Below, in pieces: positions 32,261 to 61,735 of a DNA stretch of 64,000 bases; position 1 is the stretch's first letter; every line of letters starts with the position of its first letter. Below the pieces are notes generated by a model that saw only the letters and a list, made by a program, of their open reading frames with translations, did not search any database and had not been told where the DNA came from. This DNA comes from Marivivens donghaensis (GTDB taxonomy: Bacteria > Pseudomonadota > Alphaproteobacteria > Rhodobacterales > Rhodobacteraceae). Both the position numbers and the translations under genes were made by a program. The stretch lies in NCBI RefSeq assembly GCF_011806565.1, contig NZ_JAATOP010000008.1, positions 62,001 to 126,000 of the forward strand. Direction: 5' to 3'.

Positions 32261-32337
32261 CCTCCCGACTCGGCTCTATCTCGGTCGGCGGGACACTCCT
32301 CCCCAACGAGGAGCGTATATCTGAGAGGGTAACACCG
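32261..32337 (+). ncRNA. serC leader: serC leader RNA motif (candidate)
   Basis: Upstream of serC are two short hairpins: CCGAC (32265-32269) with GTCGG (32284-32288), and CTCCTC (32296-32301) with GAGGAG (32308-32313, 6-base loop), followed by the GAGAGGG ribosome site and ATG 32338. A structured serC leader upstream of serC-serA operons in alphaproteobacteria is an established Rfam family, and the gene order here is exactly that. Assignment is from context and hairpins, not a covariance-model match. Its ligand, if any, is unknown. Confidence 0.6.
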
Positions 32338-59399: not shown

Positions 59400-59405
59400 T
59401 TGACA
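59400..59405 (+). promoter_or_regulatory. Consensus -35 box for the micro-transcription unit
   Basis: TTGACA is a perfect sigma-70 -35 hexamer. The -10 is unclear: 17 bases downstream is ACCCTT, poor. Transcription would begin near 59435, giving an RNA of about 185 bases ending at the terminator. Confidence 0.4.
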
Positions 59406-59465
59406 TATACGACATCTGTGCCACCCTTCAGGTACAGGCGAAACTCATTGAAAGGAGGTGATCCA

Positions 59466-59522
59466 GTGTCGAGAAAGGTATTGGAGAAAGTGGTCGGGAC
59501 AGCTTGGGGGGCGGTAGTCTAA
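59466..59522 (+). CDS. 18-residue leader-type peptide with extreme Shine-Dalgarno
   Basis: GTG start, TAA stop, predicted peptide MSRKVLEKVVGTAWGAVV (basic then amphipathic). AAAGGAGGTGATCCA (59451-59465) immediately precedes it and is complementary to the 3' end of 16S rRNA over 15 bases; its core AGGAGG is seven bases from the start. The stop lies inside an 8-bp hairpin. Such a ribosome site makes translation very likely, but the peptide itself may matter less than the act of translating it. Confidence 0.5.
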   Translation: MSRKVLEKVVGTAWGAVV

Positions 59523-59575
59523 GGCAGCCCTTAGACGGCTCAAACCTCAGGTGGGACAGCCTAACCGGCCCACCT
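59517..59575 (+). promoter_or_regulatory. Two hairpins, stop codon in the first, anti-SD in the second
   Basis: Hairpin 1: GTCTAAGG (59517-59524) with CCTTAGAC (59529-59536), enclosing the TAA of the small ORF. Hairpin 2: AGGTGGG (59549-59555) with CCCACCT (59569-59575). CACCTCCT (59571-59578), partly in hairpin 2, is also the exact complement of the Shine-Dalgarno AGGAGGTG at 59453-59460, so two exclusive folds are possible. Confidence 0.55.
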
Positions 59576-59587
59576 CCTGGACTTTCG

Positions 59588-59618
59588 AAGGGTCGCCGAT
59601 CGCCTCGGCGGCCCTTTT
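59588..59618 (+). terminator. Strong intrinsic terminator upstream of arfB
   Basis: AAGGGTCGCCGA (59588-59599) pairs with TCGGCGGCCCTT (59605-59616), 12 bp with one G-T wobble and a 5-base loop; the T run is 59615-59618. It ends the micro-unit, or acts as an attenuator for arfB 171 bases further on. Confidence 0.85.
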
Positions 59619-59640
59619 AATTCGCACCCGAACGGGCCGC

Positions 59641-59674
59641 TGCGCACCCTTTTGACGGGAATAAAGGGTGCGCA
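59641..59674. repeat. 12-bp perfect inverted repeat
   Basis: TGCGCACCCTTT (59641-59652) and AAAGGGTGCGCA (59663-59674) are exact reverse complements with a 10-base spacer. The right half contains AAAGGGTGCG, which recurs twice downstream. Confidence 0.85.
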
Positions 59675-59727
59675 ATCCGGCGCGGCACATGCGAAAATTC
59701 GGACCGATTTAGCCCGCAAACGCGCGA

Positions 59728-59737
59728 AAAGGGTGCG
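59728..59737 (+). repeat. AAAGGGTGCG direct repeat, copy 2
   Basis: Exact copy of the core of the inverted repeat at 59663-59672, 65 bases downstream. Confidence 0.8.
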
Positions 59738-59769
59738 GGATGCCCACTTCGCACTAGTTTCAGGGCATA

Positions 59770-59779
59770 AAAGGGTGCG
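59770..59779 (+). repeat. AAAGGGTGCG direct repeat, copy 3
   Basis: Third exact copy, 42 bases after copy 2 and ending 10 bases before the arfB ATG, where a bound protein or RNA partner would block initiation. Confidence 0.8.
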
Positions 59780-59789
59780 ATTGGAAACT

Positions 59790-60203
59790 ATGTTAAAAGT
59801 GAATGACCAGATCACCATTCAGGACTGGGAACTGACCGAGCAATTCGTCCGCTCGTCCGGCCCCGGCGGTCAGAATGTGAACAAAGTCTCAACGGCTGTC
59901 GAACTGCGCTTCGAGGCCGAACGCAGCCCTTCGCTCCCCGATCCGGTCAAGCGCCGCCTGAAGCGCATCGCGGGCAGCAAGTGGACGCAGGACGGCGCGC
60001 TGATCCTGTTCGTGCAAGACACCCGCAGCCAGCCCCGCAACCGAGAGATCGCCCGCGAACGGCTCGCCGAAATGATCCTCAAAGCCACCCACGTCCCCAA
60101 ACGCCGCATCGCCACCAAACCCACCAAGGGATCGGTAAGGCGGCGTCTGGACGAGAAGAAGAAACGTGGGGAGGTTAAGGCGCTCAGGGGGAAAGTAGAT
60201 TAG
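59790..60203 (+). CDS. arfB: Alternative ribosome-rescue factor, peptidyl-tRNA hydrolase
   Basis: 137 aa, the usual ArfB size. GGQ motif in RSSGPGGQNVNKVSTAVELRF (about residues 22-42), release-factor domain III, then a basic C-terminal tail (RRIATKPTKGSVRRRLDEKKKRGEVKALRGK) that threads into the empty mRNA channel of stalled ribosomes. It releases peptides from non-stop ribosomes without mRNA. ATG 59790 gives the canonical start; the frame is open further left but crosses the repeat array. The ribosome site is poor (TTGGAAAC), hinting at low or controlled expression. Confidence 0.92.
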   Translation: MLKVNDQITIQDWELTEQFVRSSGPGGQNVNKVSTAVELRFEAERSPSLPDPVKRRLKRIAGSKWTQDGALILFVQDTRSQPRNREIARERLAEMILKATHVPKRRIATKPTKGSVRRRLDEKKKRGEVKALRGKVD

Positions 60204-60262: not shown

Positions 60263-61735
60263 TTGGAAAAATTCAAAAATCTGTGGTTCGGTGATTATTC
60301 AGGTCTGAAGGAGTACAACCGAGACCCTGAGGCCTTTATCAAATCATTCATTGATCCAGATGGATTTTCAATGAATTCACTCCGGAATTCCCAGAATTTC
60401 GTTCTGATTGGCAGGAAAGGAACAGGAAAGTCCTCCTGTTGCCTCTCTCTGTCACACGCAAAGCGACTCAAAGGATACAACACCACTTTCTACAATTTCT
60501 CAGAAGAAGTTGGCAGATCCGAACTCAAGGAAGCTGTACACACTCAAAACATTGACCTCAAGTCAATCGATACGACAAAACTATTCGAGTCAATTTTAGA
60601 GGCCTACGACTTTCGCGATATGTGGAAAAGAAAGGTACTCCACCGAATTGCACTAGACCTACCAGGAAGCTCGACATTCAAGAGCTGGGTAACCAGCATT
60701 GACCTTTCCGAAAATGGGATTGCTGATGGGCTAGAACGTGGCCTCAACTTGCCACTCCCAGAACCGGCAAAGTCAATCCTTGGTACCGTCTGGCACGGCG
60801 CAAACAAAATCAAAGCTAATTCCAAAATCTCACTTAAAGACTTTGTCTCTATCGGCTTTGATCTCCTTTTCCAATGCCATCCAGACGTGCGGCATTACTT
60901 CTTCTTTGACGAACTAAACCTGAGTCATTCGAAGTCCAAGACTGATGAGTATAATACTTACTTAGCGCTGATTTACGATATAGTCAGGGCTACCGATGAG
61001 TTAAATGATCTCTTTGTAAGAAAAAAAGTGGACGTGCATGTTATATGTTCACTCCGTCCGGAAATTCGCAATGCAATAATTCGGCGCGACAGTGAGATGC
61101 AGAAAGTTATAGAGTCATGTCATGTGAATTTGAGTTGGCCATCTCGTGAGGGTGTTGACAATCCATTAATGACCCTTCTACGAAAAAAGATGGAAAATTC
61201 TGGTTATGGTGAGGATTTTTTGCAAGCACTACCGGAAGAGGTTTACTCTTTAGTTGCAAAGAAGAAAATAGAATTCCACAAATTTTTCCTAAACATCACG
61301 TGGTACCGGCCTCGAGATGTTATTCGGATTCTCAAGACCTATCAGACCACCAACGGCGGACAGACAATTCTTTTTAATAAAGGCGATGACCAAGTACGCT
61401 TCTTGAAAGAGTATTCACGAATCTCCATCCAAGATATTTCCGCCGAACTTGAGGTTAAATACTCAAGATCGGAAATTGATAGAGTTACCTCGTTAATTCG
61501 ACAACCGAATTACGAAAATGCCGACGATTTGAAAGATTCATTTGCCGTTCTTGAGCGGAAATTTGACCTTGATGAATTGTTGAAAGACCTATTCGAAGCT
61601 GGTGTAATCTTTAATTATGAAGTGATCAATGGTCATCCAAGAGTCTTTGCATCATACCGAGACGATGCAAATCTCATTCCTGATATGGGCATAACGATAC
61701 ATCGTGGACTTCAACAAAGTTTAGGAATTTTCTAA
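60263..61735 (+). CDS. P-loop ATPase, Sll1717-like, probably horizontally acquired
   Basis: 490 aa with TTG start and GGAGG six bases upstream. Walker A GRKGTGKS (50-57), Walker B HYFFFDE (211-217), a sensor-like [10 protein letters not shown] (261-270), and [11 protein letters not shown] (347-357), an arginine motif typical of the Sll1717 P-loop ATPase group. The C-terminal 130 residues look like a helical/winged-helix segment. No nuclease or membrane motif seen. About 40-45% GC with AT-ending codons, in sharp contrast to its neighbours. Single gene, its stop overlapping the pncB stop. Related ATPases may occur in defence settings, but no activity is established here. Confidence 0.75.

Follow-up and report, generated by a model that had tools for sequence, protein, structure and literature searches.

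A putative self-terminating micro-mRNA ahead of arfB in Marivivens donghaensis, related to the alphaproteobacterial RNA CC2171

Components of the unit and its surroundings

In the 64-kb window, the whole stretch of Marivivens donghaensis DNA that was analysed, a compact unit lies on the plus strand at 59400–59618. It begins with a −35-like TTGACA (59400–59405), which is kept in most Rhodobacteraceae copies inside a block of about 30 nt; no consensus −10 was seen after it, and a promoter scanner returned no promoter at the locus. The extended Shine–Dalgarno (SD) sequence GAAAGGAGGTGATCCAG (plus strand, 59450–59466) is complementary to the 3′ end of 16S rRNA. Its class-wide core is GAAAGGAGGTGATCC, and the alphaproteobacterial 16S tail has been printed as GGCUGGAUCACCUCCUUUCU for S. 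meliloti (Sinorhizobium) (PMC6943124). No second complement of at least 12 nt to this tail was found elsewhere in the window, and the genome assembly has a single copy of AAAGGAGGTGATCC, the 16S sequence itself being apparently masked or absent there. An open reading frame (ORF) of 18 codons, VSRKVLEKVVGTAWGAVV, occupies 59466–59522 on the same strand, with a GTG start at 59466 and a TAA stop at 59520–59522; its length and stop are fixed in the family. A hairpin, TCCAGTGTC/GGTATTGGA (59462–59485), encloses the start codon; this conserved fold accounts for the invariant TTGGA of codons 6–7. The stop codon is contained in the 5′ arm of hairpin 1 (59517–59536), in which 59517–59524 and 59529–59536 form 8 bp and the flanking pairs covary in the family. 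Further downstream are an alternative hairpin 2, GGTGGG/CCCACC (59550–59574), which is weaker than the SD pairing and absent from some copies; the motif CCTAAC (59560–59565), whose CTAA is invariant in 28 aligned copies; and a built-in anti-SD, CACCTCC (59571–59577), which pairs with SD positions 59454–59460 and of which CTCC is invariant. The unit closes with an intrinsic terminator, a 12-bp stem followed by TTTT (59588–59618); with no more than TTTT for a tail, it escaped a simple scanner. All of these features are on the plus strand, as is the next gene, arfB (59790–60203), which carries the RF-1 domain PF00472 and is syntenic at the family level only. The first-pass annotation had named a consensus −35, the ORF with its TAA inside an 8-bp hairpin, the 12-bp terminator and the neighbouring arfB, all of which are present, as well as a 16S complement of 15 bases, which does exist and in fact extends over 17 nt (59450–59466).

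The surroundings of arfB are less stable. In the gap between terminator and gene, positions 59637–59779 contain three copies of AAAAGGGTGCG and an inverted copy, which gives a perfect 12-nt inverted repeat (59641–59652/59663–59674). Relatives have other short repeats in this gap (GTGCACCGGG-like at locus L009, CGTATGGAAA-like at L016), so the region upstream of arfB is probably repeat-rich and fast-changing. Directly after arfB, 60263–61735 encodes a 490-residue P-loop ATPase with weak ORC-CDC6-like/AAA matches; no homologous ORF is found at that place in locus L002, whose unit is 98% identical, and the ATPase ORF is therefore a probable island. Elsewhere in the window, 32286–32337 is a strong match to the serC leader RNA (RF00517).

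Distribution of the unit and evidence for translation of its ORF

Conservation in relatives, which the first-pass annotation had left to be checked, goes beyond chance. A nucleotide search matched the unit in 49 of 101 related genomes, one copy each and, save for one marginal match, all in the same family; GTG, 18 codons and a stop are found in 30 of 30 aligned loci. At the gathering cut-off (75 bits) an Rfam scan gave nothing at the locus. Under an E-value threshold the sole hit at the unit was RF01867, aligned over model positions 1–159 of 159 (E = 1.8e-6, 36.5 bits), and Rhodobacteraceae copies score 32–43 bits against this model, below the cut-off of 75. The SD/start block and the terminator align with both ends of RF01867, and the same block occurs in loci across the class. 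Matches to the model were obtained in 61 of 289 class genomes, with Caulobacter as the positive control; three genomes (G072, G331 and G338) have two or three matches each, which suggests that the unit may sometimes be duplicated. In a collection covering 84,980 species, at least 119 records contain the pattern GAAAGGAGGTGATCCNRTGTC. Among the matches listed, every title naming a class, order or genus is alphaproteobacterial (a few go no further than 'Proteobacteria' or 'Pseudomonadota'), and the orders represented are Rhodobacterales, Hyphomicrobiales, Sphingomonadales, Caulobacterales, Rhodospirillales and Acetobacterales. With two mismatches allowed, the pattern occurs in 66 of 241 class genomes, nearly always once, and the reversed pattern gave one match. 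Common to the relatives are a 16S complement of 15–17 nt, an ATG, GTG or TTG at a fixed place, an ORF of 14–31 codons and an intrinsic terminator. Judged by these alignments, the unit represents a diverged branch of RF01867 (CC2171), which Rfam lists as a non-coding sRNA of Caulobacter. The earlier remark that no such leader was known is thus partly wrong, since this divergent relative exists. The experimental source of CC2171 is reportedly the work of Landt et al. in 2008; neither Rfam 15 nor a Mesorhizobium sRNA list (MH_s33) gives a function for it.

The stop codons speak for translation. Among 63 unique 18-codon ORFs of Rhodobacteraceae the stop is TAG in 29, TGA in 26, TAA in eight and TGG in none, and the chance of zero TGG is 5e-11 when the two variable columns are taken as independent and relatedness is ignored; two further family members have 20 codons. 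The start, too, has a fixed place: of 194 elements, 121 have GTG and 73 have ATG there, and a few elements in the 241-genome pattern scan have TTG at that offset. In the five main lineage groups the standard deviation of the stop position is 0.3–2.4 codons in frame, compared with 19–41 in the other two frames. The 18-codon ORF is therefore almost certainly translated and under selection for frame and length. Schrader 2014 (PMC4117421) describes Caulobacter intergenic ncRNAs as untranslated, with two translated exceptions.

Its product is another matter. Codons 13–18 are variable at most positions, the third bases of Val10 and Thr12 are invariant or nearly so, and family peptides share an N-terminal Ser and LE...VGT; between orders the peptides are unlike one another, and codon-4 changes (UGU/GGU/CGU) in other orders are mirrored by the pairing strand. 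Since the peptide is poorly conserved and the RNA pairing is conserved, being translated outweighs the product: ribosome recruitment, start and stop at fixed places, and folding are selected, and the peptide is not the main target. A small-protein gene, with the 18-residue peptide as the product and the RNA merely its mRNA, would explain the selected frame and length and the Ser and LE...VGT kept in the family. It is nevertheless decidedly improbable, as residues 13–18 are hardly constrained, the peptide changes from order to order, and the conserved codons are also fixed at synonymous positions, largely explained by RNA pairing. The adaptiveness of the ORF is 0.34, below 99% of internal genome segments (AGA occurs at 1.1 per 1000). 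Its coding part (59466–59519) carries the genome's rare codons AGA, GTA, TTG and ACA, and sister clades retain AGA, ATA, TTG, AGA and ACA in the ORF; such codons might serve to make ribosomes pause, or might merely follow from the RNA pairing.

RNA folding and gene linkage

For the RNA of the window, the fold with SD:CACCTCC has a minimum free energy (MFE) of −58.0 kcal/mol and the hairpin 2 fold −51.1 kcal/mol, a gap of 6.9 kcal/mol. CACCTCC can enter either pairing, as had been proposed for it, and the SD pairing is the conserved family fold. The Rhodobacteraceae consensus comprises GGAGGUG:CACCUCC, UCCAGU:AUUGGA in the start region, and UCGG (codons 10–11):CCGA. The last of these helices has two double changes, and the SD:anti-SD helix has one-sided changes only, because the ribosome fixes the SD. 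Pair counts exceeded all 500 shuffles and the pairing and covariation score exceeded all slid versions, the counts being inflated by relatedness and the structure being derived from the same alignment. Ensemble folding of 59 sequences gave an SD:anti-SD probability with a mean of 0.83 and a median of 0.99; the Rhodobacteraceae SD is open at 4%, versus 33% with the downstream part shuffled. The finished Rhodobacteraceae RNA is predicted by these models to be closed, with CACCTCC paired to the SD and a hairpin enclosing the start codon. For the stop-codon hairpin, 62 sequences gave a mean z of −2.2, and the pairs beside the stop alternate among G-C, C-G, U-A and A-U, which argues that this hairpin is real in Rhodobacteraceae.

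The closed fold bears on two other explanations. The RNA might be an abundant decoy: its 17-nt SD would detain 30S subunits at a closed start site, and general initiation would fall as a result. The near-complete SD and the hairpin around the start codon suit such a role, and the rare codons (adaptiveness in the lowest 1% of genome segments) could slow clearance; however, the full-length RNA conceals its SD in Rhodobacteraceae, and a pure decoy needs neither a fixed ORF length nor a stop, which makes this account quite unlikely. Barely credible is a type I toxin-like (hok-like) mRNA inhibited by 5′–3′ fold-back. A 3′ element does close the SD of a small ORF at long range, but the peptide is short, poorly conserved and, by inspection, devoid of a hydrophobic stretch, and the unit is a single chromosomal copy with fixed synteny in the family.

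Outside the family the folding differs. In other orders, codons 3–5 (CAUUGUC) pair with GACAAUG immediately 5′ of the terminator, a long-range helix that belongs to RF01867. The fourth pair of this helix, which was not used as an anchor, is U-A in 21 sequences, G-C in five and C-G in four, and is canonical in 32 of 35; shuffles gave a mean of 21.9 and a maximum of 28. For a P1-type helix in Rhodobacteraceae, each sequence's own pairing was no better than pairing swapped within the family, with failed-duplex artefacts in one group, and only a different candidate pairing could be seen by eye in place of CAUUGUC:GACAAUG. Whole-RNA folding revealed no SD occlusion beyond shuffles in Sphingomonadales and other groups. 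In Bradyrhizobium occlusion perhaps exceeds shuffles, less clearly (seven sequences); here UCACCUC within the ORF pairs with the SD, apparently an independent route to SD occlusion. The Bradyrhizobium variant (L132, L142, L146, L150, L168, L188 and L193) has a 14-codon ORF, VSxxKRCHLAGIAR. RNAalifold on large mixed alignments was uninformative save for Bradyrhizobium. The idea that a mimic of the 16S tail (e.g. ACCTGGATCnTCGCCTC in the Rhizobiales ORF) sequesters the SD of its own RNA throughout the class was considered and rejected, as excess occlusion is found only in Rhodobacteraceae and perhaps Bradyrhizobium; a local duplex test of such mimics in the ORF gave a suggestive mean z of −0.6 to −2.1. 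With occlusion restricted to Rhodobacteraceae and the small Bradyrhizobium sample, the bistable part is not the class-wide function.

The first-pass annotation had suggested that the unit may attenuate arfB. In such a leader, whether the 18-codon ORF is being translated or terminated would set read-through of the terminator into that gene. Within Rhodobacteraceae there is much to favour such a leader: arfB lies within 500 nt downstream on the same strand at 50 of 63 loci, a conserved hairpin holds the stop codon, and in several genomes the arfB ATG is just 18–35 nt past the terminator T-run, which leaves no room for a promoter and makes read-through likely at these loci. However, none of the roughly 123 loci from outside Rhodobacteraceae has this linkage; the single arfB-linked match labelled 'other' (L077) comes from a Rhodobacteraceae genome and has an ATG start. 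Five family genomes keep the unit intact with arfB not adjacent but 1.8–16 kb distant or on a different contig, and no neighbour common to lineages outside Rhodobacteraceae was found. Moreover, the upstream gene Vut_1 (YhhQ-like, of the queuosine-precursor transporter type) is linked more often still, at 57 of 62 family loci, about 60–95 nt upstream of the SD at L004–L030; in M. donghaensis a phytase-like gene takes its place. When RNA up to 59532 was masked in the window's own sequence, as by a ribosome parked at the stop, the terminator helix was still in the MFE structure, and no antitermination switch was therefore found. An antiterminator between the hairpin-1 3′ arm (CCCTT) and AAGGG of the terminator is not favoured, since masking region 1 leaves the terminator able to form. 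Because the linkage is confined to one family, some members of which have lost it but retain the RNA, the unit is probably not primarily an arfB attenuator, and that reading as a whole is unlikely; some coupling to arfB is likely at loci with the 18–35 nt gap, yet it would not be the reason for the unit's existence.

Proposed mechanism and comparison with known systems

The unit is old, mostly single-copy and probably trans-acting; it is selected to recruit ribosomes through a near-complete 16S complement, and would translate a counted number of codons and end its own transcription. The reading that we prefer, to which we give about an even chance, is a self-terminating micro-mRNA or dual-function small RNA that represents, in Rhodobacteraceae, an RNA found in most alphaproteobacterial orders; it would be engaged by ribosomes, bistable and active in trans. 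The label of dual-function small RNA, already proposed in the first pass, would fit an ORF under selection for translation within a conserved RNA fold. Some 115 nt of transcription separate the anti-SD from the SD, so capture by a ribosome before the lock can close would decide the state: a 30S subunit caught by the SD in this interval would keep the RNA open and translated, and without early capture the RNA would snap shut. As the choice would be set by 30S capture, the state of the RNA may read the supply of free ribosomes or the status of translation. More tentatively, the output could be exerted in trans, either by the exposed anti-SD/CUAAC region or by the retention of 30S subunits, for which the lack of a conserved neighbour outside the family is a point in favour, and read-through into arfB may be a later by-product at the family level. 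A bolder version is unlikely: that the RNA of most alphaproteobacterial orders senses free-ribosome supply through its complement of the 16S tail, that in Rhodobacteraceae a self-copy of the tail makes conformation and trans output report the arrival of a ribosome, and that the 'non-coding' CC2171 is the founding member.

By its substitution pattern, a widespread alphaproteobacterial 'sRNA' would be an mRNA in which the start, a fixed codon count and the stop are selected and the peptide hardly so. If the RNA does read ribosome availability, it would reveal a new means by which a small RNA can sense translation capacity. Such units should not be read as leaders of whichever gene comes next. 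The idea is testable in Caulobacter, Cereibacter/Rhodobacter and Sinorhizobium, with partly existing data.

Several known RNAs resemble the unit in part. The first is CC2171, which shares the GAAAGGAGGUGAUCCAGUGUC block (identical), the position of the start codon and the terminator. Its middle part and ORF sequence, and apparently its P1 helix, are unlike those of the Rhodobacteraceae unit, which adds the stop-codon hairpin and the CACCTCC anti-SD, and Rfam types CC2171 as an sRNA gene, not as coding. The second is the hok type of mRNA, which is inhibited by fold-back. As in the unit, a 3′ element shuts the SD of a small ORF over a long range; the unit, however, has no toxin-like peptide and no known antitoxin RNA. 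The third is rnTrpL/peTrpL of Sinorhizobium, likewise a dual-function alphaproteobacterial sRNA with a short translated ORF (PMC10117765). It is leaderless, derives from the trpE attenuator and encodes a functional 14-residue peptide (PMC10117765), whereas the unit has an extended SD and no conserved downstream gene in the class. Finally, CcsR/SmelA075 and the Caulobacter SisA–D sRNAs also carry an anti-SD in a structured RNA (PMC3927594, PMC12559287); theirs is presumed to act in trans by pairing with target mRNAs (PMC3927594, PMC12559287), whereas that of the unit is predicted to pair with its own SD.
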